From NCBI GenBank assembly GCA_018857735.1, contig JABMCL010000520.1, forward strand, positions 333,501 to 397,500: a stretch of 64,000 bases of DNA, in the 5' to 3' direction. The position numbers were made by a program, and so were the translations under genes. Under the pieces are notes generated by a model that was given only the letters and a program-made list of their open reading frames with translations, did not search any database and had not been told where the DNA came from. Shown in pieces: positions 1,433-49,400 of this stretch (position 1 is the stretch's first letter; each line of letters starts with the position of its first letter). The stretch comes from Alviniconcha marisindica (lineage: Eukaryota > Mollusca > Gastropoda > Provannidae).

Positions 1433-4400
1433 TCGCTCTTTTTATGTCCCTTTCTTTTTCATCCTTTTTTTTCTTCTTCTCTTTTCTTTTTGCATGGTTG
1501 AGAGTGTGGCATGGGGAAGTTGTAGTTGCTTTTCATTCATTTTTTAAGAATTTTGTTTTGTGTCACTTTAGGTTCTGTATTTCCAAATGAAATGAAGCAA
1601 GACAATGTGCCTGGCTGCTTAAAACGTCTGTAGGTGCATTTTTGTTGCCAATTGTCAGGTCAGTGAGATCAGTCTGTGGGTGCCTTTTTGTTGCCACTTG
1701 TCAGGTCAGTGACATCAGTCTGTGGGTGCCTTTTTGTTGCCACTTGTCAGGTCAGTGAGATCAGTCTGTGGGTGCCTTTTTGTTGCCAATTGTCAGGTCA
1801 GTAAGATCAGTCTGTGGGTGCCTTTTTGTTGCCAATTGTCAGGTCAGTGAGATCAGTCTGTGGATACCTTTTATTGTCTTCTGTGTTCCTCTTTTTTATG
1901 AAAATAGTGCACCTGTTTCCCTGGAGATGAACTGCACATATCACCTATGACTGATTTCAGTTCGCCTATCACTTGGTAACCACATTCCATCTTGGAGGGT
2001 TGACCTAGTGTTTGCTGTATTTTTGTGTTCCCAGACAGTGGTCAGGCTGCAAATGCTTGGGATTTTTAAAGTGCACACAGAAGTTGATGCATGCAGTTGG
2101 CATTATTGCACACAAGGGCTGTACCACCAGCCTGCACTGAAAGTTGATTCTGGGAGGGAAATCTCTTGCTGTACCAGGGAGTCGAACCCACACTAACTGA
2201 GCTGCATACCCACACCTTTTTTGTTGTCAATGGTCAGGTTGCTGAGATCACCTTTAACTTCTGGTACCGACTGTCAGAGGAGCTGTATCAACGGAACAAC
2301 CAAGTGCTGACCCAAGTCTTTCGACCCTATGTACAACGACTCATCATTGCTCTGTGTCGACACTGTCAGCTAGACTCCGACCATGTGAGTGTGGTGTGTA
2401 CAAATGTGTTGTTGTTTTTGTGGGGGGTTGGGAGGGGGGAAGTGTTTATTTTAGTTTGTTTTTCTTTTGCTATGATGTTTGATTGTTTCTTAGGTGTGTC
2501 TTTGTTTTGTGTTTTTGCTTCAGGAGGGTGTTCCTGATGAGAGTGGAGACTTTGGGGAGTTCCGACTTCGAGTGTCCGAGTTAATCAAAGACATCGTCTT
2601 CATCGCTGGTTCCTCCTGTTGCTTTGCCCAGGTACTGTATCTGTGTGTGTGTAGAAATGAAAAAAGGGGGGGGGCTGTAAATAACTTCATGTAGTAGGCT
2701 CTTGCGTGCTTGTTGAAAAATAATTGTGTGGTTAGGATCAGTCATGTGAGGTCTTAGTTTGTAGGAGCTACAAACTGCACTCTTTGGGGCCATAGATCAG
2801 GTATGGTGCAGGAACCCACAAGGGAAACGATTGGCAATACTGAAGAAAATAGTCAGCACTTTTGTCAAAGTAAAGGAGCCAGCAGTAAAGGAGCCAGCTA
2901 CCAATGGGGTCAACCGGGTGAACCATCTGCCAATGACAGGACAGAATTTTGGAGGTGTCCTAAGGTAGGCCACCCAAAACAAAAGCGGGGAAGGGTGGCC
3001 CTTTAAAATGAAGAGGGGGGGGTTTTTTCCTTGGTCAGGGGTGCCTTTAAATGGAAGTATGAAGGGAAGAGTGTTGTGAATAGAAGGGTGGTCCTTGGTC
3101 AGGGTGCCTTTAAATGGAAGTATGAAGGGAAGAGTGTTGTGAATAGAAGGGTGGTCCTTGGTCAGGGTGCCTTTAAATGGAAGTATGAAGGGAAGAGTGT
3201 TGTGAATAGAAGGGTTGTCCTTGGTTGGAGGTAGATTTGAGTGGAAAAGTGAAGGGATAGGTTTCAGAAAAAGTGATCACCAGGAGTTCTTCTGTGTAGG
3301 TGGGTGTCCCATCACATCCAATGTTGCGCGCACTTAATGACCCAGAGAAGACCCGTAACAACCCACCCAGATTAGCAGCATCACTGAATGTGAACATTTT
3401 GTTTTTGACCAGAATCCCCCTGTCATTTGCCACTTGAAGTGTCAGTTTGCTGGATCCAGAGAACGTTGAACCAGCTCAGCTGATGGGTACCACCAGGACT
3501 TCACTCCTTCTTTGAAACAATGTCCTGTTCTGCTTCAGATGTTTGAGAATCTCAGGAGTCAGTCTGCTGCGTCCACGTGGGAAACGTCAGAGGCGGCACT
3601 CTTCGTCATGACCGCGCTAGCCAAAAACATTCTGCCGTGAGTGTTTCCAGTGTTTTCTTTGGCATTGTTCGGAACATACAGGTGCTCGTCGTGCAACAAG
3701 TTTCAGCCTTTATGCTGTCAGAATAACTAAAAGGAATACTTGTTTTCTGCTGTAGAAAATAATGGTATGTTGTAGAAAAAGTAATAAGACTGTTGTACAA
3801 GCAGTGGAATGCTGGAAGTTGTCATGCTGTTGCCATGGGAACACGCAGTGGTCTGTCTCTAGATCTGTTTCTCAGGGAGGAGAATGAGGTGGTTCCAGAA
3901 TAGTGCATGCCATCCTGATATTGCCACCAGAGACCCAGGTTGCTATGGGAGCAGTACAGTGATGTCACAGTCCCTGTTTTTCAGGGAGGAGAATGAGCTG
4001 GAACCGCAGGTGGTACCAGCCATCCTGTCATAGCCACCAGAGGTCCTTGTTGCCCTGGAAACAGGAGAGTGACGTCTCTTCAGTTTTTCAGAGGGACTAT
4101 AAGGTGGTTCTGTAGGTAGTGCAAGCCATCCTGACATTGCTGCCAGAGAGCCATGTTGCCATGGGGACAGAAGAGTGGCATCAAAATTTGTATTTTTGAG
4201 GGTTAACAGCAAGTGGTTCAAATCAAGCCATCCTGACGTTGCTGCCAGTATTCTGTGTTGCCATAGGAACAGTATAGTGACATCACAGTGTTTTTCAGGA
4301 TTAACAAGAAGGTTGTGCAGGTCATCCTGATGTTGCTGCCAGTGTTCAGTGTTACGATGGGGACAGTGTAGTGACATCTCAGCCTGTGTTTTTCAGGGAG

Positions 4401-7400
4401 GAGAACGAGGTGGTTCCACAGGTGGTGCAGGCCATCCTGACGCTGCCGCCAGAGACCCACATAGCGGTGCGCTACACCAGCACACAGCTGCTAGGAGAGC
4501 TCAGCGAGTGGATAGAGCGACACCCGCAGCTGCTCGGTCAGTGCCGTCTTTTCATGGGGATGCCTAGAGTTGTCTGGGGGACTGGGAGGGGTGGAATTAT
4601 AGGTAGGCAGTAGTGTAATGGGATTCTTTTCTTTCTGGTATATTGCTGGTAATAGTGTCATGAGATTATTTTCTTTCTGGTATATTGCTGGTAATAGTGT
4701 AATGAGGTTATTTTCTTTCTGGTATATTGCTGGTAATAGTGTAATGAGGTTATTTTCTTTCTGGTATATTGCTGGTAATAGTGTAATGAGATTATTTTCT
4801 TTCTGGTATATTGCTGGTAATAGTGTAATGAGGTTATTTTCTTTCTGGTATATTGCTGGTAATAGTGTAATGAATTATTTTCTTTCTGGTATGTTGCTGG
4901 TAATAGTGTAATGAGGTTATTTTCTTTCTGGTATATTGCTGGTAATAGTGCAGAGATTATTTTCTTTCTGGTATATTGCTGGTAATGTGTCAATGAGTTA
5001 TTTTCTTTCTGTGTATATTGCTGGTAATAGTGTAATGAGATTATTTTCTTCTTGGAAATGTTGGTGGAAAAGGATAGTTTTTTCATGTTAGATTATTTTT
5101 TTTGTTATATATGTGGTAATTAGTGTAATGAAAAGTTATTTTTGTTTCTGTGTAGATCAATTGCACTTATAAATATGTGTTATCATGAGTTATTTTCTTT
5201 TATATTGTTGCTTCATGTGTGGCACATGGACATTATATTTCTTGCATATTGTTAGGTGTCATTTCTGTCTTGAACATTTTACCTTTGACATTTTTCTCAC
5301 TTAACATTGGAAATGTTGGAGAATGTTGTAAAGGGCAGTGAGTTTGTGTCGATCAGAAATTAGCACTATATAAAAGTTATTTGTTGTTATCATGAGTGTG
5401 CAGATCAGAGATTAGTGCTATATAAAAGTTATTTGTTATTATTATGAGTGTGCAGATCAGAGATTAGTGCTATATAAAAGTTATTTGTTGTTATCATGAG
5501 TGTGCAGATCAGAGATTAGCGCTATATAAAAGTTATTTGTTGTTATCATGAGTGTGCAGATCAGAGATTAAAGCGCTATGTAAACGTTACGTGTCCTTAC
5601 TGTGGTTGGGTCTTTGTTCAAACTCGTGAAATACCCTGTGACTGGTTGCTGTGGACAGACCCAGTGCTGCAGTACTTGCTGGGGGGGTTGCAGCAGCCCC
5701 AGCTGGCCTCCATGGCCGCCACAGCGCTGCAGAGCATCTCCACCCAGTGCAAGGATCAGATGACGGAGCACTTCCAGGGCCTGGTGCAGATTGTCCAGGC
5801 CATGGACACCTTCAACCTCTCCACTGAGGCTGCCATCGGCCTCCTCAAAGGTGGGCTTGGCTTGGGCTGTGAACTTCAGGGCTTAAGATGTGATGTTGCT
5901 GTGCTTGCAGTGGGAACTTTCTGGGTTTGTGGTGTGAACTTACTGTGCTTGTAGGTGTGAACTTCCTGGGTTTTAGGTGTGATATTACTGGGCTTGGGGT
6001 GTGAACTTATAGGGGTTGGGATGTGAACTTCTGCACTTGGGGTGTGATCTTACTGAGCCCAGGGTGTGAACTATCTGGCTTTAGGTGTGAAGCTAACGGG
6101 CTTGGGGTGTGGACTTAACTGGGCTGGGGGTGTGACCTTGCTAGGCTTGGGTGTGAACTTGGTGGGCTTGGGCTGTGAATATAGTGAGCTTGGAATGTGA
6201 ACTTACTGGGCTTGGGCTGTGAACTTTAGGGTTTGTGATGTGAGCTTCTAGGATTTGGGCTTAGGCTGTGAACTTTTAATGTATTTGCATTTTGTGCAAA
6301 AACAATACAGAGTGTTATAGTATAGTGATAACATTGTACATGATTGTACAATACACTGCAACATGACATACTACACAAAACGAGTGAAACGGAAGGGAGC
6401 AATAACAATACTGAGAAAGTACTAGAACAGATTTATGTAACTTGCAACATTACTATACATGTACTTAACACTCATTTGGAATGGAAAATGTCTCAGGGAA
6501 CAGTGTTGTAAAAACACATTTTGAGACTTGACTGTTGACACATTCCAGGTGCTGCTACCATCCTGGCTCGGCTACATCATGGGAAAATCTCTGACGGTCT
6601 TCGACAGCTGTGTCTATGTCAGATTACCCCTTTGAAGGTGGGTTTTTATGCTGCCATCTACCCCTTCTCCACCCGCCTACTCTCCACCCCTCAACCACCC
6701 CCACAGATCATACCCCACCACCCCCACCCCTCAGGCTTTAGACTGTATATAGTTAACCATATCCCCAGCCCTGGATTTTCCTTCATTCACTCTTAACCCA
6801 GCGTGAATCAGATGTTTAATCCACTTTGATGTAAACCTGTGAAAATACGCCCTCCTTCCCCACCAACAACCCCCTCACCACCACCATTTTGTTGTTCACA
6901 TTTGTATAGTTTTGCAGACATCAGATTTTTCTATTAAGAGATGGAATTCTGTCAATTTAGGTGCATCAGGGGTTATTCTTGAGAAGAGCAAGATTTACAA
7001 AGCTGTGTTTGAGTTCTTTGTAGGGTTGGGGAGGGTAACATCTGGGAATTTCCATCCCAAGTGGTATTTCTGAATCTGATGTTTGTGTTTGGGTGCTGAT
7101 TCAGTTTCCCTATTGCGGGTACTGTTTCCTGCATGGTAATCTAGATTATGATGCAGAGTGCACAGGCCTGGGGTCCACTGTCTGTTGGTTATTAAACACT
7201 CCTCTGTTGTTGTTTTCCTTCTTGGGGGAGGGTGTTTTTCCCATGGACAACGTGAATGAATGGACTGACTGGCCATTGTTTGTACCATTGATTTGTATTA
7301 TGTGTACCACCTGTGAGTACAGTGGGCTGATGCCTTGGGTTGTTCGTGTCTATGCAGGGGTTGTTGGACAGCACTGAAGCAGTCAAGCAGGGTTCTCCCA

Positions 7401-10400
7401 CAGACCCAACTGTGTGGCTGGACCGACTGGCGGCAATTTTCAGGTATTGCTGCTGCTGTTTCAGGGTTTTTGAACTACTCTTCCCTGGTCTCTCACCCTC
7501 ATCACTTCTCCTCTCCCACCCTTATCACCCACCTCTCCCCTGTCACCTCACGTCTCTGTCACCCGTATCATCCCACCTCTTCCTTGTCACCTCACACCCA
7601 CTTCTCCCTTGTCACCCCACTTCTCTGTCATCCATTGCACCCAATTTCTCCTACCCATATCACCCCACCTCTCTCTTATCATCTCACTTCTGTCGTCCAT
7701 CTCACCTAACCTCTCCCCCGTATAACCATGCCTCTCCCTTATCATCTCACTTCTCATCATCCATCTCACCTGACCTCTCCCACCCTTATCACCCCACCTC
7801 ACCCTTGTCACCTCACTTCTCTGTCATCCATCTCACCTCACCTCTCTCACCCTTATAACCATGTCACTCTTACCCTTTTCATCTCACTTCTCTCTCACCT
7901 GTATCACCTCACCTCTCTCATTCTTATAACCATCCCTCTCACCCTTATTACCTCACCTCTCTCACCAATCGCACCTCTCTCATCTATCTCACATACCTCT
8001 CATTCTTAAAACCATGCCTCTCTTATCCTTATCACATCACCTCTCTCACCCCTATCACCTAGCCTCTCTTACCTTTATCACCTCACCTCTCTCATCCTTA
8101 TAACCATGCCTCTCTTACCCTTATTGCCTCTCCCACCCTTTTCACTACACACCACCCTTACATCACCTCCCCCATCCTTTTCCCTTTTCACTACACACCA
8201 CCCTTACCATACCTCCCATCCTTATCACCTCTCCCACCCTTTTCACTACACACCACCCTTACCACACTTCCCATCCTTATCACCCACCCTTTTCACTACA
8301 CACCACCCTTACCATACCTCCCATCCTTTTCACCTCTCCCACCCTTTTCACTACACACCACCCTTACCATACCTCCCATCCTTTTCACCTCTCCCACCCT
8401 TTTCACTACACACCACCCTTACCATACCTCCCATCCTTTTCACCTCTCCCACCCTTTTCACTACACACCACCCTTACCATACCTCCCATCCTTTTCACCT
8501 CTCCCACCCTTTTCACTACACACCACCCTTACCATACCTCCCATCCTTATCACCTCTCCCACCCTTTTCACTACACACCACCCTTACCATACCTCCCATC
8601 CTTATCACCTCTCCCACCCTTTTTACTACACACCACCCTTACCATACCTCCCATCCTTTTCACCTCTCCCACCCTTTTCACTACACACCACCCTTACCAT
8701 ACCTCCCATCCTTATCACCTCTCCCACCCTTTTTACTACACACCACCCTTACCATACCTCCCATCTTTATCACCTCTCCCACCCTTTTCACTACACACCA
8801 CCCTTACCATACCTCCCATCCTTATCACTTCTCCCACCCTTATTATTTATTACCCCCCCCCCCCCCCCAAAAAAAAAACCCATCAGGAAAGCGATGAACC
8901 TTGTGTGCAATGTGGTAGTTGACTGATGACTGACCAGGTTTTTTATTATCTGATTTGCACAGGTACACCAACCCCACAGTGACCAATGGCCAGATGCATC
9001 CATGCCAGCCAGTTATCATGGAGGTACGTGGTTCAGTCATGGTTTCACCATGGCTTGTACATGTGGGTTGCTGTGTCAGTGAATGGTTGCTGTGCAGATG
9101 ATTCTGTGTGGTTCACAGGACCTTAAAATCCAGGAACTAATAAACAAGTGTGTTTGAGTGTGTGTGTGCTTCTTCCTTCACTGCACTGTTATGTGCCTTC
9201 AGGTGAACTGTTTGATTTGTGCTTGTGTAGATTTGGCATCTTTCAAGTTACTATCATGGTAAAGTGTGTGTTTCTGTTGCAGCTATGGCCAGTGAGGTCA
9301 CTGTCATGGTAAAGTGGGGTTTTTTGTTGCAGCTATGGCCAGTGAGGTCATTGTCATGGTAAAGTGTGTGTTTTTGTTACAGCTATGGCCAGTGTTGTCA
9401 CAGGCCTGCAGCAAATACCAGGCAGACATCCGGGTGATAGAGCGATGTTGCCGGTGTATTCGCTTTGCCATCCGCTGTCTGGGCAAAAACTCCGCCACTC
9501 TCCTCACCCCTCTAGTCACACAGGTATGGCGGAATTCACCTCTCCCCATGTGCCCGATGTTTCTGCCAGCATAAAGTAGCAGTCTTTGCAGTGTGGAGTT
9601 TATCACTATATCAGCAACTTTCTAGTAATAATAATGAATATTAAAGTATCAGTGTGATACAAAGGCTAGTGAAGATGACTGAACAAACACTGAGGAAAAT
9701 ATCTTGTGCTTGTTACTTGGTGGAAATAAAATTCTCATGTCATAAGCACTTTGTTTGTAAATGAGCCCAAATGCAGCTGCACTTGGTGCACCAGCACTTG
9801 ACTGTAATCTGACTGAATGTTCTGACCCAACTTGCAGATGGTGCAGCTGTACTCAGTGCACCAGCACTCATGTTTCCTGTACCTGGGCAGTATTCTGGTG
9901 GACGAGTACGGGGGTGAAACAGGCTGTATACCTGGTCTCTTAGATATGCTACAGGTAAGTGTCTTATAGATATGGTACAGGTGAGGGTCTTTCAGATATG
10001 ATCCAGGTAAGGGTCTCTTAGATATGCTACAGGTAAATGTCTTGGATATGATACAGCTGGGGGGCTCTTAGATATGCTACAGGTAAGTGTCTTTCAGATA
10101 TGCTACAGGTAATGGTCTTTTAGATATGCTACAGGTAAGTGTCTTTTAGACCTGCTACAGGTAAGGATTCCTTAGATATGCTACAGGTAAGAGTCTTGTA
10201 GATATGCTGCAGGTAAGGGTCTTTTAGATATGCTACAGGTAGGATCCCTTAGCTATGCTACAGGTAAGGGTTATTTTACAGGTACAGGTGAGAGGTGTAT
10301 GTGTGGGTCAAACAGGCTGTGCACATGGTGTCTTCAGTAAGCTGTGGCTTAGGGCCAGAGACAGGTCTGTTAAATATTCTTACAGTTATGGATCAGAAAT

Positions 10401-12597
10401 GAGAGTGGAGATGACATGATATGCATAATTAGGCTCGCCCTTTCTTCTCCACCTTTGTTGCTACTTTTGTTGGGGTTCTTTTGTGGTGATTCTTTCTTTG
10501 TAGTGCTTGAGCAATTTTCTGATTGCTGTTGTGTGGTGTTTGCAGGCTTTTTGTGGCCCTACTTTCAAGATCCTAGAGGAACACAATGGGCTGAGGAACC
10601 ATCCTGACACAGTCGATGACCTCTTCAGGTTATGTTTGAGGTCAGTGTGTTATGGGGGGCTTGTGAGTGTGTGTGGGGGGGGGGGGGGGATTGTACTTTG
10701 TATTGGTGGTTAGAGGGTTGTGTTTGGGGAGGAAGCACTGTATCCATGCATGCATTCAAGAGTGAGTCCTCACCGTCAGCTACATCCGTTCGACTCTCTT
10801 GCAGATTTGTACAGAGGGCGCCACTGTCCTTCCTGCAATCCGCCATGTGCAAACCATTGCTGTGTTGCGCCATCGCTGCCTGCTCGCTGGACCACAAAGA
10901 TGCCAACGCCTCCGTCATGAAGTTCCTCTCCGATTTCATCAAGTGTGCGCGGGAAAAGGAGGTGAGGGGTAGAATCCAGGTGGCCTGTGGTTCTGGGGCT
11001 CATCATTTGTATTTAAAAGGAACAGAGGAAAGATGCAACTGTTCAATCACAGGTCTGTCCCAGCAGACTGTGCCACCAGAAGAAAAATGCTAGGGAAACC
11101 AAGATTGCATCCAGAAAAGAGAGAAACAGACAGTCACTTTCACTGCCCCTCCCCCCCCATTGCATCTTCATACAACAAACAATCCTAGTGCTGACATTGT
11201 TGCTGTAAAAAGTTCACAGTGACAGTCAGTTGTGTGATTTTGTATGATGACATCATGTTGGAATTTATTGTTAGTACAAATAAGATGAATAACTTACTGT
11301 GAAGAAAAAAGAAAAGACATACTCCAGGCTAATGATTTCCACACCCCTATGTAGACGTTAAAATCCATTGTTATTGAAAAAAATTCATATGCTTAGCGAA
11401 GGATTTCTGATATGTTCAGATACGTAGCCAGACCAAGGATTTAAAAAAAAATTCAGATACAGAGCCAGGCAGAGGATTTCTGGACAGCCATCCCAACACT
11501 GGTTACTTCGTCTGTTTCAGGATCGGGATGACTTTGAGGTTCGGTCAACAGCAGTCAAACAGTTGCTGACGGACCACGGCCAGGCCCTGGTCCATGCCAC
11601 CATCAATGCCTGCGTCTTCTGCCTCCCCAGCTACATGATCCCCGATGTGGCCGAGGTCCTGTATGAGTTAATGCTGGTGGACCGAGCGGTGAGTTTCAGG
11701 GGGTGGGTCACAGCCCGCACCTTATTCTGTTTTTGAGAGATTAAGGCATGGCACTTTGGGGACTGTATATAATCCAAATCAAATGGAGCTAAGTAATCTG
11801 TCTGTTTGAAATGTCTGCAGGTACATTTTTGTTCTTAATTGTCAGGTCACAGAGGTCAGTTTTCTGAACTGTAGTTTATTTATGATCACTTGTACATTTT
11901 GTAATTACACAAGGATAGAAGTACTTCTGTGCTACATCTGTAAAAACAAAATGGTAATTTGCATGTTAAATAACATCCACTGACTGCAGTCCCCAAACAT
12001 CCATCTTTGTGGCACTTTGAACCAGTGTTAACAGGCAGAATAAATGTTTTTGTGACAACTGTTTGGCTGTAATGGTTAAACACTGACTTTTGGGTGTTTG
12101 TTGTTGACAGACATTCTGTGTGTGGTTGGAGACGACGCTGAAAGCCCTGCCAACAGAAAACAGCGGGGGTGCTGTCACAGCAACCAGAAAGCAACTGACA
12201 GATTTCCACAAGTCTGTCACAACGTGAGTACCGCCCCTGGTGACTGAAATGTTAACTATCAGAAGACCTTGGGCTCAGGGCCCTTTAGATCCACAGGTGT
12301 GTGGATATTACACATGCAGACCTATAGATCTGTATTCATCCAAGTGGAGAAACTACATTTATTTTGTTTGTATTTTGGAGATTGTTTAAATCTGAAGCCA
12401 TTTGTCAGTAAGATGAAAAGAGACTGTGTTTTTTTTGTTTTTCTTTTTTTTACTATGTTCATTGAAAGTCAGCTAACCATTTCCTCATCTGATTTGTTCT
12501 TGGCATTCATTTGAACTTTTTTCTCTTCTTTTCTAGGGCAGAGGAACTGAAGCAGCTGATGCATGCTGTGCGGGATTTCTCTCGTCTCTACAGATAA
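550..12597 (+). CDS. TNPO3: Transportin-3 (importin-beta family), 3' part, 17 exons
   Basis: Nuclear import receptor that carries SR-rich splicing factors into the nucleus with RanGTP-dependent release. Exons: 550-625, 1255-1317, 2238-2384, 2524-2631, 3539-3636, 4397-4536, 5659-5850, 6549-6637, 7358-7443, 8963-9023, 9383-9523, 9838-9954, 10546-10640, 10805-10961, 11521-11688, 12111-12223, 12537-12597. All have AG/GT borders and the phases agree, giving 636 codons plus TAA, which matches about the last two thirds of the ~920-residue family. Diagnostic stretches include [49 protein letters not shown] (the arginine-rich helix known in human TNPO3 to contact RS domains), [38 protein letters not shown]-like SLDHKDAN and the C-terminal KQLTDFHK. 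The N-terminal HEAT repeats and start codon are left of the window. Several introns carry splice-junction tandem arrays, listed separately. Identification is by recognition of the family sequence. Confidence 0.96.
900..1075 (+). repeat. Unclassified dispersed repeat, copy 1
   Basis: The segment starting TTGCAGACATCAGA in this TNPO3 intron is clearly related over about 115-170 bp to 6908-7082 in a later intron (shared GGAATTC, GCATCAGGG, AATTTCCATC blocks in the same order). No coding or tRNA-like feature was seen. Confidence 0.6.
1370..1431. repeat. (CT)n microsatellite
   Basis: About 30 perfect CT dinucleotides in a TNPO3 intron. Confidence 0.95.
1620..1865 (+). repeat. ~46-bp tandem repeat resembling the next exon's acceptor
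   Basis: About five units of the type TTTTTGTTGCCAATTGTCAG followed by GTCAGTGAGATCAG. The unit resembles the true acceptor and exon start at 2215-2256 (TTTTTTGTTGTCAATGGTCAG/GTTGCTGAGATCACC), about 370 bp downstream. A further related copy lies at 11817-11866. Confidence 0.7.
2036..2210 (-). mobile_element. tRNA-derived SINE, family C, copy 1
   Basis: Shares blocks with 43145-43365 (GTGCACACA...GTTGA, GCACT-AAAGTTGA, GGGAG). The right end reads GGGAGTCGAACCC, the reverse complement of a pol III B box, so the tRNA-like head lies at the right and the element is in minus orientation. It sits in the TNPO3 intron just before exon 2238. Confidence 0.55.
3030..3235 (+). repeat. 63-bp tandem repeat, ~3.3 copies
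   Basis: Near-identical units with GGTGCCTTTAAATGGAAGTA inside a TNPO3 intron. The unit length is a multiple of three, so it reads open on the plus strand, but it is not exonic in the TNPO3 model. Confidence 0.85.
3830..4396 (+). repeat. Degenerate array of TNPO3 exon-start copies (pseudo-exons)
   Basis: About five diverged copies, 90-120 bp apart, of the acceptor plus the first ~65-75 nt of the exon at 4397. The best are at 3876 (GGAGGAGAATGAGGTGGTTC) and 3985 (GGAGGAGAATGAGCTGG), each after a tttctCAG or tttttCAG acceptor. In the TNPO3 frame the first reaches TAG after eight codons and the second after about 15. Later copies (about 4098, 4200, 4299) are more decayed but keep CATCCTGA-TTGCTGCCAG. 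Confidence 0.85.
4618..5060 (+). repeat. ~41-bp tandem repeat, ~11 copies
   Basis: Units around TTTCTTTCTGGTATATTGCT in the intron after exon 4397-4536, decaying toward the right end. No obvious link to a splice junction. Confidence 0.9.
5340..5580 (+). repeat. ~55-bp tandem repeat, ~4 copies
   Basis: Units with AGTGTGCAGATCAGAGATTA and GCGCTATATAAAAGTTATTT just before the acceptor at 5659. GCGCTATATAAA resembles the tail motif of common mollusc SINE-like repeats. Confidence 0.85.
5851..6275 (+). repeat. ~25-30-bp tandem repeat starting at a TNPO3 donor
   Basis: Degenerate units of the type GGGCTTGGGGTGTGAACTTA begin at the donor of exon 5659-5850 (AAAG/GTGGGCTTGG) and run for about 420 bp. 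The array is seeded at the intron side; little or no exon sequence is included. Confidence 0.8.
6908..7082 (+). repeat. Unclassified dispersed repeat, copy 2
   Basis: Second copy of the element at 900-1075, same orientation, with TTGCAGACATCAGA, ATTCTGTCAATT and GAATTTCCATC in register. The copies differ by many substitutions, so the duplication is old. Confidence 0.6.
7470..8105 (+). repeat. Degenerate C-rich minisatellite
   Basis: Irregular ~20-60-bp units of CACCTCTC, CACCCTTATCACC type in the TNPO3 intron after 7443. It runs into the regular array at 8106. Confidence 0.8.
8106..8850 (+). repeat. ~60-bp minisatellite, ~11 copies
   Basis: Highly regular units with CACCCTTTTCACTACACACC and CTTACCATACCTCCCATCC. 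It reads open on the plus strand as a Pro/His/Thr-rich chain only because the unit is a multiple of three; it is intronic in TNPO3. A poly(C)-poly(A) stretch follows at 8851-8878. Confidence 0.92.
9250..9400 (+). repeat. Triplicated acceptor of TNPO3 exon 9383
   Basis: A ~60-bp segment occurs three times. Copies at about 9282 and 9333 read GTTGCAG/CTATGGCCAGTG and continue AGGTCA-TGTCATGGTAAAGTG; the third is the true acceptor GTTACAG/CTATGGCCAGTG. The true exon is chosen because only it continues into the conserved TNPO3 reading frame. Confidence 0.9.
9934..10290 (+). repeat. 26-bp array of the TNPO3 exon 9838-9954 donor
   Basis: About 13 units of the form TTAGATATGCTACAG/GTAAGT plus GTCTC. 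The first unit is the real exon end and donor. Most copies keep CAG/GTAA or CAG/GTGA, so the intron opens with a ladder of plausible donors. At 26 bp, use of the second donor would shift frame. Confidence 0.92.
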
Positions 12598-18765: not shown

Positions 18766-18796
<31 letters not shown>

Positions 18797-19054: not shown

Positions 19055-19087
<33 letters not shown>

Positions 19088-24200: not shown

Positions 24201-24535
24201 ATGTTTGTGTCTCAAGGTTTTGATAGTGGTATATATGTATATAATATTATATGTGTATATCTCCTCCATGGAACACAGGAAAGGGGCTGCTGAATTAATG
24301 TGTTTTTATGCCTACATTTTTTTCTTCTTCTATTTTTTCCTTTGTTCAGTTTTCTTGTTTGTCTGTTTTTCTAGATTGTGTATTTTTGTTGGTATCAATT
24401 TATCTTTTAACTAGCTGTGTTGTCTGCTTCGTCTGAATCTTTTGTTACTGAACTTATGAAGGATAGTGTGCTCATTCTAGTTGGTTTAGATACTGAGCTT
24501 TGCAAATCTACTTGATTAAGCACATGCGTGTGTGT

Positions 24536-24584
<49 letters not shown>

Positions 24585-29325: not shown

Positions 29326-29400
<75 letters not shown>

Positions 29401-34813: not shown

Positions 34814-34862
<49 letters not shown>

Positions 34863-37800
34863 AACAGTTACCTTGTGTTGTATTTGATGTCTGATGCGCC
34901 AACATCGCCTTGCGTCATGTACATTCCCATTTTCAGAGGAGCAAGTTGAGGAGACACCTGAAGCAAGAGTGGAGGAAGAGGACCTCAAGCTGCAGAGAAC
35001 AGATTTGAGAAGTCTACAAAAGGTCAGTGACCTTTTTCTTTAAATGAGCAGCTGTATGTTCCTTTGTTCCTGATGTTATGTGCTCCCAAAGTGCCATATT
35101 ACTGAGCTCTTTAATGAAATTTGGTATATATTTCATTTATTTCAAGATGGAGCATCATTTATATATATTTCATTTATTTCAAGATGGAGCATCATTTATG
35201 AAATATATATTTCATTTATTTCAAGATGGAGCATCATTTATCAAGTACAAACTTCAAATACTGAGTATTGTGTCTACCCTTTTGCTTTAAAATGTACCCT
35301 AACTGTACCCCCTCACCCTAATTCCAACTCTAACCCCAAACTTTAAACTCTGCTTTTGAAACAGAGAGCTTTGGGAACACAGAACTGTGGGAACATATCA
35401 GTAAATATGATCTGTGTCTATGCATTACAGTTATCCAGAGCTAGGCCGGTAAATACCCCATACAAGATTCATGTATTCTTTGTGTTGTTTTGCTTGATTT
35501 GTGTTTTCTTTGTTTGGTTTTGTCACTTCAAGTGTTTGTTTTCTCCCCCAGAAACTACAAGAGATGGGCAAGAAGAAGAAAGTGACTCCCTACGAAAAGG
35601 TCCAACAGGAGCTTCTAGGCTATGTGAAGGAGACGGTCAGGTAAACTGACATTGGAATAATCCACAGTATATTTCTCGAGACAGTCAGGTAAACTGGTGT
35701 TGGAATAATCCACAGTATATTTCTAGAGATGGTCAGGTACACTAACGTTGGAATAATCCACAGTATATTTCTAGAGACGGTCAGGTAAACTGATGTTGGA
35801 ATAATCCACAGTATATTTCTCGAGATGGTCAGGTAAACTGACATTGACATTGGAATGATCCACAGTATATTTCTCGAGACGGTCAGGTACACTGACATTG
35901 GAATAATCCACAGTATATTTCTCTGGCAGCTTACAGGGGATGCTTAGCATTTCTCCCAAATAAATGGAATTCCCCCCCCCCCCTCCCAAATAATACAGCA
36001 CTCACAGGAGTTTTTCAGTCAGTTTATGCTCTCGTCATTTGTTTTAAATGTTTTTAACTTTTTGAAAATGTTTTCCAAATTTTCGTTTTGTTGGAAGTCA
36101 TGAAATCACGGCCATGGGTGCTCCCTTTTGGACGGAGTCTGTGGTGTTGTGAACAAGGTCTGCGTGTATGGCTCTTCTGCTGGGAGCTGTATGAATTACG
36201 AATGGTGCATGCTACTCTCAGCATGACAGGGGAAAGAACAGGATGTGATTTGATTTCAAGCTTTCTGCTTGCCTTTTGTTAACCTTTTTGCTGCCAAAGT
36301 ATTTGTGCTGCAGATGCAAATCCTTCGCAAAAGAGACGGGTTAAGCCAACCACAAACATTCATTTTCTACAATTTTGCTGCTTCTGAGCATTCCTGAACA
36401 GTTGGAAGACAAGCGGAATATCCTGTGACGTCTTTCTGGTAGATGGGAAACACTGCATCGTTGACATCGTGTGAGGGAGCTGGGATAGCTCAGTGGTAGA
36501 GCGCCAGACTCATGAGTCAAAGGTGTTGAAGTCCCAGCAGGAGCAGCGGGAGAATTTTCTTCTCCACGGTCAAGTTTCTCTGCTGACTCATAATTCGGTA
36601 TCCGTTCTGCCCCTGTGTTACTGCAGTAGCACGTAAAAGATCCCAGTCATTCTGCCAAAAATGTAGGTCGCAGGTTACAACTCAACACACATGCACTGTA
36701 TGTATGTGGCTTCAAATGAAGTGGCACTGTAAACTGGTGAGTGGTTTTATGGTGCACACAGAGCATGCACTGAGGTGGCAGCAGTTTCATGTGGGACCAG
36801 CCATGTAACCGCCAAACAGCGCTGTAAGTACACCACTTTGGTGAATATTCAAAACAAGCTATAAGTATAAACGGCTACAGTCAATCATTCAGAATCACTG
36901 CGACAAGAGCGCAGTGAGTCTGCTAGAGAGTGGAGAATAACGCCATATAAAACCGATCAACAAGTTGTATGAGGTCATAAGCACAGGCAAAAGGGTTAAA
37001 GCACATGTACCCATACATTGTTTCAGGACCTACCTCCTCAGGTCAGAGGCCATTGTGCTGTACGAAGTTTTGTACTATGATGACATCACCACTGTCAAAC
37101 GTCACCTGAACGCTGCACCTCGCTCAGCCATTCATCAGGCGCTGAGTAACCCAGCCCATTACCTGCAGGTAGGGCAGTGACTGTTTCATTTTTAACACAG
37201 GTAGGACAGTGACTGTTTTATTTTTAACATTGCCTGCAGGTAAGGCAATGACTGTTTCATTTTTAACACATCACCTGCAGGTAAGGCAGTGACTGTTTCA
37301 TTTTTAACACAGGTAAGGCAGTGACTGTTTCATTTTTAACACATCACCTGCAGGTAAGGCAGTGACTGTTTCATTTTTAACACATCACCTGCAGGTAAGG
37401 CAGTGACTGTTTCATTCTTAACACATTGCCTGCAGGTAAGGCAGTGACTGTTTCATTTTTAACACTTTAACACATTACCTTCAGCTAAGGCAGTGACTAT
37501 TTCATTTTCTACACATCACCTGCAGGTGAAGCAGTGACTGTTTCATTTTTAACACATTGCCTGCAGGTAAGGCAGTGACTGTTTCATTTTTAACACATTG
37601 CCTGCAGGTAAGCCAATGACTGTTTCATTTGTAACACATCACCTGCAGGTAAGGCAGTGACAGTTTCATTTTTTTACACTTTAACACATTGCCTGCAGGT
37701 AAGGCAGTGACTATTTCATTTTTAACACATTACATACAGGTAAGGCAGTAACTTTCATTTTTAGCACATTGCCTGCAGGTAAGGCAGTGACTGTTTAATC

Positions 37801-38943
37801 TTTAACACATTGCCTGCAGGTAAGGCAGTGACTGTTTAATCTTTAACACATTGCCTGCATGTAAGGCAGTGACTGTTTAATCTTTAACACATTGCCTGCA
37901 CGTAAGGCAGTCAGCATTGCCTGACATGTGTATCTATGTTTCAGTGCCAGTGTTGCTCAGTGCATGATGGCAGCATTTCACCCACCATGCCCGACGTGTG
38001 CATTGCGTACAAACTTCACCTGGAGTGCGGACAGCTCATCAACCTCTACGACTGGATGCAGGTCAGCTGTTTCCTTATTAACCCTTTTTCTGTGAGCATT
38101 TCAACTGGCAATACTAACCCCTTCGCTGGCAGTCAGCAAAGGGTTTTTGGATGCTGTTTGTGCAAAGCATGCAGTTTGATGAATGATTTGGCTTGCTATG
38201 TTAACAATATTAATAATGGGGATTTCTGTTGCCCCCTTCTACCACACAAGTGCCCAGAGCACTTGAAAATAACACTAACAGCACACATGCACACACACAC
38301 ATGCTCACACGCACACACATGCTCACACACACACACGCATTTTTTGCCCACCACCAGACAGTATGCCAAGTCCTGTGGATTAGGAAGAGAAGCATTTGAT
38401 TTGTGGTGTCAAACAGCTTGTCCATCCTCTGTGTTTCAGGCATTTGCCAGCATCATAAGAGCAGAGGAACAGGAAAACAGAAAGAAAGCTTCCAAACCTG
38501 ACAAAGTGCTGCAGTATCCTTGGTCGTATTGCACATTGTGTTTGGATGTGTGTGTGTGTGTATGTGTGTGTGTGGATGCATCACTGGGTATATTGCATGT
38601 TCTCAATTTTGGTTTAGTTCTGACAGGAGAAGGCTAAAGGAAGGAAATCAACCATACGGAAAAAAAGGAGAAAATAAATGATTAGAAAATGTCTTGTTAC
38701 ATAGTGAGGTTACTTTCAGTCAGAATTCCACTGCAGAAAACCAGTGTTAGTGTAGCCTTTCTCTGCCCTTTTCTCAGATTTGTGCAGTTTCTTTCCGTCA
38801 CTCAGCACCACAGTTGTCTTCCTTTACTGTGACCCAGGGCCAGATTCATTCAGGCTGTGTCAGAGTTACAGTTCCTGGGCTTCATCAAACCCACAAAGAG
38901 AAAAACGGACCATGTGGCCAGGCTGACTTGGGGTGGATGCTGA
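20874..38943 (+). CDS. ORC3: Origin recognition complex subunit 3, complete, 20 exons
   Basis: Subunit of the ORC1-6 complex that marks replication origins and helps load MCM helicase; nuclear. Exons: 20874-20900, 22268-22316, 22539-22627, 23086-23209, 23781-23941, 24975-25067, 25773-25912, 26466-26625, 27675-27788, 29154-29287, 29874-29937, 30820-30936, 32822-32901, 34648-34781, 34937-35022, 35552-35640, 37027-37168, 37945-38061, 38440-38513, 38838-38943. They sum to 2100 nt (699 codons plus TGA), close to the ~711 residues of human ORC3, with no phase conflict. Landmarks: [12 protein letters not shown] and EDYLPRDNG near the N-terminus, LREIPTAAL-like [20 protein letters not shown]-like LHAKDC, MGIATS and [16 protein letters not shown] in the AAA-like region, [33 protein letters not shown], and a C-terminal winged-helix end [21 protein letters not shown]. 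As usual for ORC3 I see no Walker A motif. The residue after LLL at the 32901/34648 junction depends on the exact donor. Confidence 0.96.
21068..21116. repeat. (GT)n microsatellite
   Basis: About 24 GT units in ORC3 intron 1; a matching (CA)n lies at 21200-21250, so the two could pair as an inverted repeat in the transcript. Confidence 0.95.
21200..21252. repeat. (CA)n microsatellite
   Basis: About 25 CA units, complementary to the (GT)n tract 85 bp upstream. Poly(G) at 21436-21454 and poly(C) at 21716-21739 follow in the same intron. Confidence 0.95.
24530..24584. repeat. (GT)n microsatellite
   Basis: GT repeats in the ORC3 intron between 23941 and 24975. The rest of this ~1-kb intron is AT-rich with no other feature seen. 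Confidence 0.95.
25915..26030 (+). mobile_element. tRNA-like SINE head
   Basis: GCGCAGCTGGTAGGGCATCA and a B-box-like CTGTTTTGATTCCACAG, starting immediately after the donor of ORC3 exon 25773-25912. No second copy in the window; low-confidence fragment. Confidence 0.4.
26590..26965 (+). repeat. ~60-bp array derived from ORC3 exon 26466-26625 3' end
   Basis: About six units containing CCACCTTCCAC and TTGCTGATTGA, sequences that end the exon (CCACCTTCCACACAG...TTGCTGATTGACAAG/GTGAGCTCC), followed by AGGTCAGCTCCA. The array covers the first ~340 bp of the intron. Confidence 0.8.
27558..27690 (+). repeat. ~47-bp acceptor array before ORC3 exon 27675
   Basis: Three units of AATAGTTTTGTGTG then ATTTTGAT-A; the last is the true acceptor and exon start GTGTGCAG/ATTTTGATGACC. 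The first copy retains ATACAG/ATTTTGATCA. Confidence 0.85.
28468..28665 (+). repeat. ~44-bp tandem repeat, ~4 copies
   Basis: Units with GTAGAACTTGCAGTGCTGCT and ACACTGCAGAGCAGCACGA in an ORC3 intron; each unit has internal GCTGC/GCAGC complementarity. Confidence 0.9.
29030..29170 (+). repeat. Duplicated acceptor of ORC3 exon 29154
   Basis: 29031-29083 and 29122-29172 share TGTGACAG-TT-TG, GCCATA-ATTGCAGTACT and CATGATGGA. The second copy is the true acceptor (ATTGCAG/TACTGCATGATGG). More decayed relatives lie upstream to about 28800. Confidence 0.7.
29331..29398. repeat. (CTGT)n(CT)n microsatellite
   Basis: Tetranucleotide then dinucleotide tract 44 bp after the donor at 29287. Confidence 0.95.
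30170..30560 (+). repeat. ~44-bp tandem repeat, ~8 copies
   Basis: Regular units with AATGGAGTTTGTCCTGTCAT and GAAGATGACTTCATGGATTTC in an ORC3 intron. No splice-junction origin seen. Confidence 0.92.
30889..31346 (+). repeat. 39-bp array of ORC3 exon 30820-30936 3' end and donor
   Basis: About 13 units of CACCTGCCCACCTGGCCTCT then TGGCAAACAG/GTGAGTGG. The first unit is the exon end itself (CACCTGCCTACCCGGCCTCTT). Nearly all copies keep a strong CAG/GTGAGT or CAG/GTCAGT donor; a few units are deleted internally. Confidence 0.95.
31605..31680 (+). repeat. Dispersed '(ATA)n...gtcttagagcac' fragment
   Basis: AATAATAATAAGAATAGTGG then AGAGCACCC and GAGCCCTAGGTGTGTACA; a short relative of the repeat at 16188-16300. 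Confidence 0.35.
32020..32100 (+). mobile_element. Tc1/mariner-pogo-like MITE fragment
   Basis: Starts TACAGTAGAACCCC, a terminal-repeat-like motif of pogo/Tigger-type elements, and contains AAAAATCAACCAAAAGCGG, AAAGGGGTGGTTGCAAG. A related element lies at 44173-44336. Internal to an ORC3 intron. Confidence 0.4.
32225..32821 (+). repeat. ~41-bp acceptor array before ORC3 exon 32822
   Basis: About 14 units of TTTTTGCTGTTACAG/ATA plus GGATAGTGTTACAA-AATGTG. The last ends at the true acceptor CTGTTACAG/ATACGGGAACTG. Copies grow more regular toward the exon. Confidence 0.93.
32880..33583 (+). repeat. 33-bp donor array after ORC3 exon 32822-32901
   Basis: About 21 units of CTTTGAGCTTCTTGG/GTAGGTG plus TTTGTTGCCGT. 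The first is the real exon end. In the ORC3 frame every unit reads GGG TAG, so retention of any unit would add a stop. Long minus-strand reading frames here are artefacts of the 33-bp period. Confidence 0.95.
34797..34860. repeat. (GT)n microsatellite next to ORC3 donor
   Basis: GT repeat starting about 16 bp after the donor at 34781. Confidence 0.95.
35128..35245 (+). repeat. ~37-bp tandem repeat, 3 copies
   Basis: Units of TTCATTTATTTCAAGATGGA with GCATCATTTAT in an ORC3 intron. Confidence 0.9.
35628..35925 (+). repeat. ~48-bp donor array after ORC3 exon 35552-35640
   Basis: About six units of CGAGACGGTCAG/GTAAACTGA then CATTGGAATAATCCACAGTA. The first GAGACGGTCAG is the real exon end; all copies keep CAG/GTAAAC or CAG/GTACAC. 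Confidence 0.93.
36476..36955 (+). mobile_element. tRNA-derived SINE, family A, copy 2 (in ORC3 intron)
   Basis: The head reads GGGATAGCTCAGTGGTAGAG (A box) followed by a B-box-like GGTGTTGAAGTCC; the body is the reverse complement of copies 1 and 3. Inserted in the ORC3 intron between 35640 and 37027, sense to the gene. Not a tRNA gene: the anticodon arm is degenerate and a long body follows. Confidence 0.85.
37155..37920 (+). repeat. ~40-bp donor array after ORC3 exon 37027-37168
   Basis: About 18 units of CACATCACCTGCAG/GTAAGG plus CAGTGACTGTTTCATTTTTA. The exon ends CATTACCTGCAG/GTAGGGCAGTGACTG, so the unit spans the last ~10 exon bases. It fills almost the whole intron. Confidence 0.95.
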
Positions 38944-39068
38944 CCTTACTGATGTGGGGTGGAAACTGACCTTGCTGGTGTGGGGTGGATGCTGACCTTA
39001 CTGACTTGGGGCGGAGGCTGACCTTGCTGGTGTGGGGTGGATGCTGACCTTCCTGTGTGGGGTGGATA
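38918..39068 (+). repeat. 26-bp array starting at the ORC3 stop codon
   Basis: About six units of CTGACTTGGGGTGGATGCTG plus ACCTTA. The first unit is the last codons and TGA of ORC3, so the array copies the end of the coding sequence into the 3' UTR. Longer ~68-bp units sharing GGGGTGGATGTTGAG continue to about 39375. Confidence 0.9.
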
Positions 39069-39375
39069 CTGAGTCTGTGGTGTATTAATGCATATCAGAG
39101 AAAGACCTGTTGCTTGGCAAAACTGGGGTGGATGTTGAGTGACTTGTATCACACAAAAACCTGTTGCCTGGTGTAACAGGAGCAGATGTTGAGCAACTGC
39201 TAAGACCTGTTGCCTGGTGAAACAGGTGGATGGTGAGCAACTCTTGTATTAAATACTACACAAATACCTGTCACCTGATGAAACTGGGGTGGATGTTGAG
39301 CAACTCGTGTATTAAATACCACACAAATACCTGTCGCCTGGTGAAACGGGGGTGGATGTTGAGTGATTGTTGTGT
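39069..39375 (+). repeat. ~68-bp degenerate tandem repeat
   Basis: About four to five units with ACCTGTTGCCTGGTGAAAC and GGGGTGGATGTTGAG, contiguous with the stop-codon array. Confidence 0.75.
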
Positions 39376-39571
39376 TAATGCCACACAAAAACCTGTTCTC
39401 TGGTGACATTGGCTGAGTGTTGTAATTACTATTAGACAACACAGGCATTTCTGGTAACTGTAGTGGTGTTGAGTGATTGTATCACACAAAGTCGTGTCAT
39501 CTTATGAAATGGAAGGTGGATACTGGAAGGACTGTTGTACTTATAAGTTACACACAGATCTGTTGCCTGGC

Positions 39572-46469: not shown

Positions 46470-49400
46470 TCATCGATATTTCATCTTTTCAGTTCTGGGC
46501 CTCCATGCTTTGAGCAAGACAACACTGAAATAAAGTCCAAAGCCATGAATTTGTGTGCAGATGGCGAGGAACAACGCCCACAACACCACAGCTGGCATTC
46601 CAAACATGACGTATGTGTACTTCCTTTCCGAAAAATAGGCCAGCATATCATTCCTCAAATCCATAATGCCAAAAACAACAGGCACAATCCCAAAGACAAC
46701 AGTGCCCAGCATGTACTGTTTGAGCAGGAAACTATGGTTCTGTGGGGTGGAGCGCCAGCCAATCACAGCAGAGACGAGACTGAAGAGCCAGGCGTACTCC
46801 CATGGCCGAGGGTGAGGCAGGTCCCAGCGCCGGAGAGCCATGATGTTGAAGCCAAAGAGAGAGGTGATTCCAGGAGCCAGGCGAATCAGCATCAGGAGGC
46901 CTAGGATCATGTGGAGGAAGACGTCGAACCGCAGCCTTGTCTTGTTCAGGGAACTGAAACATAACAGTGTCACTGTCAATAACTGAACAAACCAAGCTGT
47001 CCAAGGGCTATTGTAAAAGAAGACATCAACCCACACCTTTGTCCTCTTCAGGAAAATGGCACAAAAGATGACATCAAACCATACCCTTATCTTCTCCAGG
47101 GAAATAGCACACAAAAATACACCACAATTCAAACCACACCCTCGTCCTGCTCAGGAAAATGACACAACAGAAGATATCAAACCACACCCTCATCTTGTTC
47201 AGAATACAGAAACATAGTGTCAAGCTGTTGAAGGGCTAGGATGAGAAAAGACATCAAATGACACACTTGTTGTGTTCAGGAAACTGAACCATTGTGTCAA
47301 TAAAACAAACTGTGCAAAGGCCAGTGTCAGAAGACAACAAAGCATACCCTTGTCTTGTTCAGGGAAAAAAAACACAGCACAGTGTCATTGTCAGTATCAT
47401 TAATTCATATATAATAAATGACTTTAAAAAGAAAAGAAAAAAAAAGGCTGTCCCAATACTTGCTGTAATGAACAAAAACATCAATTACCAAACCACGGCC
47501 TTGTAAGCTGTAATGTTCAGAAAAGTAAAGCATAACAAAATACAGTGTTAACAAAATTGATTTGTCCTGGTCTGTGCCTGTGGCAAAGTAAGACATCAAA
47601 CCACACTCTGGGAACTGAAAGTGAAACACCAATCCAGGGTCACTGTGACTGTGAGTAAAACAAGCTGTCCCAATGTAGACAATGATGAAGGAAGGCACCA
47701 AACTACACAGTACACTCCTGAGCAAACTAAAAACTCAGCACAGTGCCACTGCCACCATGCCAAGCTGTCCAACTCCAAGGCTTGTACTTGTGTATATATA
47801 TGTACTTGCAGTGAAGAAAGACGTCAAACCACACAATGAGAATTGAAACATCAATACAGTGCCACTGCCACAGTGCCAGTAACAAGCTCTGAAGCTGTCC
47901 CAGGATTGTACAAGTTTGTAAGTTGTAAGACAGTGCCCACACCACAATTTCTGAAGAGAAGGAAAAGTTGAGTAGCCTTAAGATTGAGTGAAGTGTACTT
48001 GAACTGACACCCATCTGCTTACAACTTATACAATTACAAGTATTATTCAGACTATTCATCGATTTCTTTTGGAAACTCCTGTTTGTAGTTGTAGTCTTGT
48101 ACTAAGCTGCTCCCATTCCTAAAGAATGTTTTTTCTCTCTCACTATCTTGCATTTCAAATGTTGGTGAAATGACTCAGAACATGTGTATTACTATTACTA
48201 TTAGTATTAGATGTAAAGTGCTGTAACAGGACCGTTGAATGCAGGGTATGACAATAATGTGTTTTTTCACTTGCCCTGTAGGGCAAGTAGATGAATTTTC
48301 TACTTCCCCGAGTGGCTAACATAGTTGCCCATGCCTGATTGTTAAACAAACAAAAACTGCCACAGTGACTCAAAATCTAGTGCTTAAATGGGCGACTTAG
48401 CTGCGGATCGCCCCGCTTGGTGGCGCGGGGCATATTTGGGGCTTTGACAAAGCTGAAGTCAGCTGCAAATGATCTCCCCTACACTATCCAGGTGGCGCTG
48501 GGCCTATTTGGGCAGTGCAATGCTCAAGCCAGCAAAGTCGCTCATTGAAATATGATACTGTCAATAAAATAAATTTAATAAAAAAGCCTGATAACAACTT
48601 GCCCGTTCGGGCAGGCCACTGAGATCTTCACCTGCCCGACTGAGTATGTTACCTGCCCCGGGCAGTACTCATCGTCATACCCTGGAATGTTAGGGGAAAA
48701 AAGCGTCAAACACTTGAAGAAATCCACAAAACTGTCAGATCGCTGAGCTGCATGACAGATGACTAACAAAAAGTGACATGCCTTGTGGCCTACTGCATTT
48801 GCAATCATTCACTTTTGTCAGGTCACTGGTTCAAATTCAACCATGAGCCATTTTTATTGAGAAATACAGTTTTGTTACAAGTGCCTTTTTGTTCATTTTA
48901 ACTTTACTATTTTTCATTATTATTTGTTAAATTTGGTTATCAAGTGGTTGTGCTGGGTCAGTTTCACAGCACAGTGATTGAGTGAAGAAGAAAAAGAAGA
49001 GGCAGTTCATCTTGGACGTTCACAGTTCACCTATCCTCATGGACGCAGGTTCACTGTTCACCTATTCATACTCATAGTTACTATTCACAGTGGTCACTTA
49101 TAGTTACTGTGTAAGACTAAGAGTTGCAACATTGTTGAACTGCATTGTTTCCCTAGTCCTACTCCTAAAAAAGAAAACAATCTTTTGCATAGCCGTTATA
49201 AATTTGGACTCCGATTCATAAGATTCTGCATGTAGCACTGAAAAACCCACTCCCTTCCCTGCATCCCTCCTGAGTGCAGCAGAATCTTATCTTCTTCGAC
49301 TCAATCACTGCTACACTAAGAGTCCAGTCTGCAAGATGAATGTGGCTGTCTTCTCCAGTTCCTCCTTGTTACCGTAGAGTTTGGTGTGTAACTGGACTGC

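Follow-up and report, generated by a model that had tools for sequence, protein, structure and literature searches.

The window analysed here comprises 64,000 nt of the Alviniconcha marisindica genome (contig JABMCL010000520.1 of assembly GCA_018857735.1) and carries three genes whose exon edges were fixed by splice signals together with a frame that stays open across all exons. These are TNPO3 (550..12597, plus strand; 17 exons in the window, up to the stop codon), ORC3 (22268..38943, plus strand; 19 exons found, the first exon not found, stop codon at 38941-38943) and JAGN1 (46471..49908, minus strand; two exons, 49908-49820 and 46953-46471), with 72 junctions in total. Each of them has a continuous ORF, and their identities were assigned by tblastn with human protein queries. 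The predicted TNPO3 protein is 92% identical to Batillaria TNPO3, and that of ORC3 is 78% identical to its Littorina saxatilis counterpart. An IRAK1BP1-like gene with a SIMPL domain (50288..53389, plus strand; three exons assigned from the ORF; PF04402 matched at E 4.9e-10 and 4.8e-06) served as a control lacking a junction array: by TRF, none of its four junctions lies inside any array, and one 20-bp array begins 18 bp past a donor. A tRNA scan and an Rfam search at gathering thresholds returned no match in the window. Altogether about six genes were looked at, in a single assembly.

Each junction was compared with its own flank in a 40-bp self-similarity scan, using reversed flanks as the null and a score of 20, reached by 0.07% of null windows, as the cut-off. 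Under this strict scan 10 of the 72 junctions are copied in tandem within their own intron (4/33 in TNPO3, 5/37 in ORC3 and 1/2 in JAGN1), which confirms the original prediction of real arrays copying the local junction. Donors and acceptors are affected equally, with five acceptors (2238, 4397, 9383, 32822 and JAGN1 46953) and five donors (9954, 30936, 32901, 35640 and 37168). Nine of the 13 sites first proposed are among these ten; the tenth, acceptor 2238, was absent from that list and was found by the scan with a score of 23.

The TNPO3 arrays, all on the plus strand, begin with a 46-bp array at 1626..1872, detected by TRF 366 bp upstream of acceptor 2238, with five copies resembling that acceptor and AG kept in 5/5. 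They continue with a ~106-bp acceptor array at 3855..4466 that includes acceptor 4397 and ~60 nt of exon 6, and which TRF alone ends at 4177; a 50-bp acceptor array at 9250..9401 (acceptor 9383, ~18 nt of exon 11); and a 26-bp donor array at 9934..10271 (donor 9954, ~21 nt of exon 12). A looser 22/43-bp array occupies 5845..6256, and although a cluster does begin at donor 5850, the junction scores 13 and its copying, also part of the original prediction, is unconfirmed.

ORC3, likewise on the plus strand, carries a 39-bp donor array at 30906..31346 (donor 30936), the first extra unit of which is in frame and amounts to 13 codons; a 39-bp acceptor array at 32206..32825 (acceptor 32822); a 33-bp donor array with 20 extra copies at 32887..33579 (donor 32901); a 48-bp donor array at 35630..35923 (donor 35640); and a 41-bp donor array with 18 extra copies at 37157..37911 (donor 37168). 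Three further proposed sites in this gene are weaker, with scores under the threshold: a 61-bp degenerate donor-derived array at 26601..27090 (donor 26625, score 18; TRF 26689-26983; GT kept in 8/9 copies), a 45-bp acceptor array detected by TRF at 27561..27682 (acceptor 27675, score 16, with junction 27674 falling within the TRF array) and a degenerate acceptor array at 28805..29161 (acceptor 29154, score 19.5, copies at 28864 and 29030). Alignment does show nearby copies at these three junctions; unrelated acceptors reach similar scores (24975, 19.5; 25773, 16.5), so the sub-threshold scores by themselves prove nothing. ORC3 also has a 26-bp array at 38929..39072, beginning in the last 15 nt of the coding sequence at the stop codon edge, which suggests that coding-sequence edges matter and not splice sites alone. 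On the minus strand, exon 2 of JAGN1 has a degenerate array at its acceptor (46915..47391, acceptor 46953) that includes ~36 nt of exon per copy; by TRF alone it covers 47015-47194 and falls short of the junction.

Copies have diverged in most arrays, with a mean distance to the used copy of up to 20%, while those at donor 32901 are nearly identical. The used copy is an outlier in 1 of 13 arrays, a count biased by the alignment of all copies to the used one. Unit length ranges from 26 to ~110 bp among loci, and a comparison of 23 units gave no unit-unit match at E 0.01; against the rest of the window at the same threshold only 15-16-mer matches were found. The units are thus, as originally claimed, mutually unrelated, variable in length and not members of a single family, and a dispersed element (transposon, introner or satellite family) was rejected since the loci share no common sequence.

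We then considered whether the enrichment of arrays at junctions, claimed at the outset to be far above chance, depends on the null chosen, and it does. When arrays were re-placed within introns with a short exon overhang allowed (3000 draws), 10 of the 23 intronic clusters from the scan included a junction, against 0.76, 1.52, 2.49 and 3.84 expected at overhangs of up to 15, 25, 40 and 60 bp (P = 0, 0, 0 and 0.003, respectively). These 10 clusters include the doubtful one at 5850 and exclude 1626-1872, and two clusters were merged over a short exon. Shifting the scan threshold to 18 or 22 gave 11/24 and 9/22 clusters with a junction, respectively. With TRF only, 8 of 24 arrays in the window included a junction, against 1.24, 2.62 and 3.92 expected at overhangs of 20, 40 and 60 bp (P = 0, 0.003 and 0.034). 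This observed excess over the placement null is carried by ORC3 (6/11 arrays by TRF, P 0-0.004), whereas TNPO3 alone is not significant by TRF (2/10, P 0.17-0.72). In terms of coverage there is no excess, since arrays cover 14% of junctions (10/72) and 31% of 4589 intron-interior windows. The claimed enrichment therefore stands for the window under the placement null, and fails by coverage, for TNPO3 alone by TRF and, as described below, for CDC5L by TRF.

CDC5L was taken from stretches of the same assembly that had been sampled blind, with no gene yet recognised in them. Junction copying recurs in this gene, in which 3 of 24 junctions (two donors and one acceptor) are self-copied with scores of 36, 36 and 27. 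By scan, 3 of 7 CDC5L arrays included a junction (P 0.0016, 0.011, 0.050 and 0.134 at overhangs of 15, 25, 40 and 60 bp), a marginal excess; by TRF the count is 1/7 (P 0.29-0.68, not significant). In the remaining readable sampled sequence no other multi-exon gene was recognised among the best 75 coding-like segments, and two Ig-domain exons in the sampled stretches had no junction array as judged by eye.

Arrays make up 26-31% of intron sequence in the window and 30% in CDC5L, compared with 9.6% of the other readable sampled sequence of this assembly. Such a high share, together with the coverage result and the non-significant TRF tests of TNPO3 alone and CDC5L, would be expected of ordinary minisatellites in a minisatellite-rich genome, lacking any edge preference and met in a window chosen for its odd look. 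Given the placement tests in the window, those of ORC3 above all, and the CDC5L scan at small overhangs, we regard this account as unlikely. Uniform neutral birth predicts that ~10% of arrays lie at junctions, which is below the share observed in the window; if the excess is general, either edge-biased birth or longer persistence at edges is therefore needed.

The first of these, which could operate as part of the mirage process set out below, would be a mutational bias, in which exon-intron junctions suffer breaks or stalling of synthesis, for example during replication initiation, and short tandem duplications are seeded at them at a higher rate than elsewhere. Besides the excess in the window and the marginal one in CDC5L by scan, it draws on what is described for human cells, in which splice junctions are enriched in constitutive origins and the origin-bearing splice sites have more double-strand breaks (PMC9645720), and for cancers, in which origin breaks are described as yielding short tandem duplications with a median of ~100 bp (PMC11685606). 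Single-strand breaks in exons and introns, the topic of PMC6925131, play no part in the argument. The association with G-quadruplexes described for human has no counterpart in the snail, as no G4 motif occurs in the 11 junction clusters; one lies 36 bp beyond 35615-35936. Nor does GC skew set the junction arrays apart: on the sense strand its mean is 0.19 over 11 junction arrays, of which 8 are positive, and 0.13 over 13 others, of which 9 are (P 0.86). Examined one by one, junction arrays are positive in 10 of 13 cases, as are most other arrays, and pooled skew is 0.009 in all intronic arrays vs. 0.079 in the remaining intron sequence. The array comparison thus lends no support to GC skew and G4 as an explanation, nor to the R-loops originally suggested as the cause. 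Keeping in mind also that the ORC3 stop-codon array is not at a splice site and that CDC5L shows no excess by TRF, we consider a mutational bias toward edges a doubtful, if possible, cause. A role of AG-GT microhomology, proposed alongside R-loops, is not supported, there being no fixed phase: across 13 arrays whose overhangs were judged by eye, the ratio of exon overhang to unit length fits a uniform distribution (KS P 0.59).

The second, likewise compatible with the mirage process, is longer persistence. Births would be uniform, and arrays anchored at a conserved edge would outlast others because selection would remove deletions that run into the exon and keep the edge copy from decaying. 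Consistent with this, junction-derived arrays, including displaced ones, are more diverged (mean score 27.1, n = 16, vs. 33.9, n = 8; one-sided P 0.026), a comparison biased by the fact that degenerate arrays are easier to spot near an exon. By position alone, the difference is lost (28.8, n = 11, vs. 29.9, n = 13; P 0.30). We hold persistence to be possible, though less likely than not, as a contributing cause.

Selection for decoy or back-up splice sites, also raised in the original prediction, would preserve the splice dinucleotides of the extra copies. GT or AG is indeed kept in 115 of 122 copies in which both letters are aligned, and the pooled rate of change is lower at GT/AG (7/245 vs. 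270/4191; Fisher P 0.02, ignoring shared descent). Once shared descent was respected, the splice dinucleotides had changed at 7 of 241 letters, and adjacent pairs drawn at random gave 13.6 ± 4.9 (P 0.087; based on 14 of 16 arrays); in JAGN1 only one of three copies keeps AG. GT/AG in the copies is thus neither kept nor lost significantly. In 11 of the 12 arrays tested the span holds another GT or AG site whose score equals or exceeds that of the used one, as decoy selection would allow; it follows that position, not strength, probably decides the splice choice. Overall, we judge decoy selection very improbable.

Under the Rogers model, in which introns are gained when AGGT-containing exon sequence is duplicated in tandem, the arrays would be young introns. 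AG-GT is present in the units, and gains of this kind are described in PMC4974935. Within one intron, however, the donor end resembles the acceptor end no more than it would that of a different intron: among 48 introns the best donor-acceptor score was 11.0 and the mean 7.11 (null mean 7.13, 99% 11.5), and all 48 pairs were unlike. An origin of both ends from one duplicated segment was therefore rejected for these introns, and the model is hardly credible as a source of the arrays.

Cumulatively, we interpret the arrays, with a probability of roughly 0.8, as minisatellites of the mirage type in a caenogastropod, made by in-place tandem duplication and tolerated since the splice site remains the copy on the exon side. 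This reading draws on the junction copies, the unrelated units, the placement excess in the window, the recurrence in CDC5L and the amphioxus parallel described below, and it fits the equal involvement of donors and acceptors and the uniform overhang ratio. A short tandem duplication (~26-110 bp) spanning an exon edge would be born in place, and the array would then grow into the intron via more duplication or unequal exchange. Only the exon-side copy would be needed, with the exon intact, splicing remaining there and all extras intronic, and because that copy suffices the array would survive, while duplications born inside exons would be purged. The duplication mechanism and the neutrality of the arrays we infer; that the exon-proximal copy is the site used in RNA is suggested by the continuous frames and the conservation of the ORC3 protein, which in an alignment with seven relatives has no repeated insert, as an exonised unit would give, at the array-bearing junctions. 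A bolder extension, which we consider rather doubtful, is that exon edges are hot spots of tandem-duplication birth in this lineage, amphioxus being perhaps an independent case: a junction-linked process of breakage or replication would steadily turn introns into junction-derived minisatellites. If so, the spliceosome would face many near-identical competing sites.

Several known systems resemble these arrays in part. Human IFI6 (6-16, G1P3) has a minisatellite that supplies more than one splice donor (Turri 1995, via PMC4526556); the likeness lies in a minisatellite at a donor with several donors usable in IFI6, but that is one human gene whose units are alternative donors, whereas the snail arrays involve many junctions, both donors and acceptors, and are described at the DNA level. 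Human segmental duplications, as described in PMC2812944, contain internal tandem repeats at exon-intron boundaries, with units of ~30 bp on average, that alter gene structure. They share minisatellite units at such boundaries and differ in concerning recent paralogues with 27 intron modifications, while the snail genes are widely conserved and continuous in frame. The tandem-duplication systems treated in PMC4974935 and PMC2891723 have in common the duplication of AG/GT-bearing sequence; in the snail there is no sign of a new intron, and one intron edge is multiplied.

The closest parallel is provided by the amphioxus mirages, in which exon-intron boundaries are duplicated in the manner of minisatellites, known from Adh3 and the globins BflGb6 and BflGb9 (PMC3087553, citing Canestro et al. 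2002). Unstable length is described for them, as is splicing that RT-PCR showed to be normal; that source reports them in a few amphioxus genes and calls the mechanism unclear. Like them, the snail repeats span the boundary, occur at both 5' and 3' edges, have units specific to the gene and locus, retain AG/GT in many copies and vary in length. The same structure having been described in amphioxus, the proposal of a lineage-specific process is not supported. The snail differs in being a mollusc and not a cephalochordate, in the frequency of the arrays (the window's strict junctions plus those of CDC5L) and in the statistical testing of their placement. The occurrence of such arrays in a mollusc, at more than one in ten junctions in each of four genes, makes the question countable genome-wide, and the arrays offer natural experiments in the choice of splice site.

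Exon edges were defined by splice signals together with an open frame across all exons, which gave continuous frames for TNPO3 (550-12597, 17 exons), ORC3 (22268-38943, 19 exons) and JAGN1 (minus strand, 2 exons); human proteins served as queries for gene identification. When each 40-bp window was compared with 1500 bp on both sides, after masking of short-period repeats and with reversed flanks serving as the null, 10 of the 72 junctions of these genes had a copy of their own junction in the flank. In alignments, the sequence repeated at the splice site comprises both exon and intron, with 20, 18 and 12 extra copies at donor 32901, donor 37168 and acceptor 32822, respectively, and TRF returned 138 rows for the window. 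The original prediction had placed arrays at 13 junctions: nine exceeded the scan threshold, 5850 was not confirmed, and 26625, 27675 and 29154 fell below it. These three sub-threshold arrays are older, and two unrelated acceptors reach scores as high as theirs. A further array, at 1626-1872, is similar to acceptor 2238 and lies 366 bp from it.

At ORC3 donor 30936, the first extra 39-bp unit (30906-30975) is open and in frame, with 13 codons up to the next donor, and a longer ORC3 isoform would thus be possible. A partial copy of the TNPO3 exon 12 start, seen by eye at 9771-9800, about 65 bp upstream of the exon 12 acceptor, is possibly the two-copy beginning of a junction array. TNPO3 is 92% identical to its Batillaria counterpart, and ORC3 is 78%, 77% and 65% identical to those of Littorina saxatilis, Babylonia and Batillaria, which puts the source of the window among the caenogastropods. 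The two genes adjoin, and their near-consecutive Batillaria protein tags (BaRGS_00016671 and BaRGS_00016673) suggest conserved gene order. The ORC3 intron at 36479-36600 contains a tRNA-like box A stretch, gctcagtggtagagcg, that resembles a SINE; ARAGORN calls no tRNA in it. Elsewhere, a three-exon gene with a Pfam SIMPL match is IRAK1BP1-like, and open frames at 18266-18805 and 19055-19573, without a match in the Pfam search, resemble the ends of LINE-type reverse transcriptase proteins.

The share lying in arrays was 31% for intron-interior windows (n = 4589) vs. 14% for junctions, 1.5% for exon-interior windows (n = 533) and 3.9% for windows elsewhere (n = 5524); judged by coverage, junctions are not special. 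Since arrays are unable to cover an exon, the fairer null re-places every array anywhere in introns with limited exon overhang (3000 draws). A junction was included in 10 of 23 scan clusters (among them the questionable one at 5850, and with two clusters joined over a short exon), against expected means of 0.76, 1.52, 2.49 and 3.84 at overhangs of 15, 25, 40 and 60 bp (P = 0, 0, 0 and 0.003); other thresholds gave 11/24 and 9/22. TRF alone placed junctions in 8 of 24 arrays (1.24, 2.62 and 3.92 expected at 20, 40 and 60 bp; P = 0, 0.003 and 0.034), an excess driven by ORC3 (6/11 arrays), with no significant excess in TNPO3 by itself (2/10). Whether arrays count as enriched at junctions depends on the null, and neither answer should be set aside.

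Because the window had been chosen for its odd look, an independent gene was needed. A 30-kb stretch of the same assembly (C1:1-30000), picked before any gene was known there, carries a minus-strand gene of 12 exons in continuous frame, which we take to be CDC5L. The scan found tandem copies at 3 of its 24 junctions (scores 36, 36 and 27), namely acceptor 25002 (96-bp units), donor 25166 (~119-bp units) and donor 27985 (39-bp units), in reverse-complement coordinates. Junctions lay in 3 of 7 arrays vs. 0.30, 0.59, 0.93 and 1.36 expected (P = 0.0016, 0.011, 0.050 and 0.134), and the observed overhangs of ~26-45 nt make a P near 0.05 the fair one. By TRF only 1 of 7 arrays includes a junction (P = 0.29, 0.53 and 0.68), because TRF stops two arrays short of the junction copy. 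CDC5L thus confirms the junction-array structure, and the excess over the placement null only marginally. Arrays cover 30% of CDC5L introns; by a TRF measure, other readable sequence of this assembly (G000) is 9.6% array, and one readable 2.5-kb block of the same C1 (L022:7501-10000) is 99.8% tandem array.

As originally predicted, units share no common sequence: BLAST found no kinship among units of different loci, and copying is therefore local. Taken relative to unit length, exon overhang fits a uniform distribution (KS P = 0.59; 13 arrays, overhangs by eye), donors and acceptors are affected alike, and so is the ORC3 stop-codon edge (TRF array 38929-39072). Together these features suggest short tandem duplications that span, in random phase, the border of constrained sequence. 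Three consecutive arrays lie 3' of ORC3 (38915-39806; units of 26, 63 and 36 bp), the first beginning within the last codons and the second having, by eye, a similar GGGGTGGATGTTGA core, although at E 0.01 BLAST paired none of the units. Within an intron, the donor end and the acceptor end lack mutual resemblance (48 introns), which weighs against intron gain. Uniform birth predicts ~10% of arrays at edges, less than the share observed in the window. For longer survival of arrays at exon edges, one comparison gave weak support (P = 0.026) and another none (P = 0.30). Breaks biased toward exon edges could plausibly seed arrays there, judging by human data (PMC9645720, PMC11685606); however, no G4 motif lies inside the 11 junction clusters, and GC skew is 0.19 in junction arrays vs. 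0.13 in others (P = 0.86).

GT or AG is retained in 115 of 122 copies. Retention did not significantly exceed that of other adjacent letters (7/241 changed vs. 13.6 ± 4.9 expected, P = 0.087; 14 of 16 arrays, shared descent respected). Weight matrices were built on 37 donors and 39 acceptors. In 11 of the 12 arrays scored (JAGN1 and CDC5L left out), the frame-required site is equalled or outscored by another GT or AG site within the array span; the exon-side copy is therefore probably chosen by its position.

The amphioxus report (PMC3087553) describes mirages, minisatellite-like tandem copies of exon-intron boundaries, at both intron edges, with unit lengths of 10-72 or 150-160 bp, normal splicing by RT-PCR, length instability and an unclear mechanism. 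In an analysis covering about six genes of one partly masked assembly, the snail arrays show every mirage feature testable here, and searches of open-licence papers showed no account of such arrays in molluscs. The snail arrays thus belong with this known kind, and what is new is their occurrence in another phylum, the molluscs.
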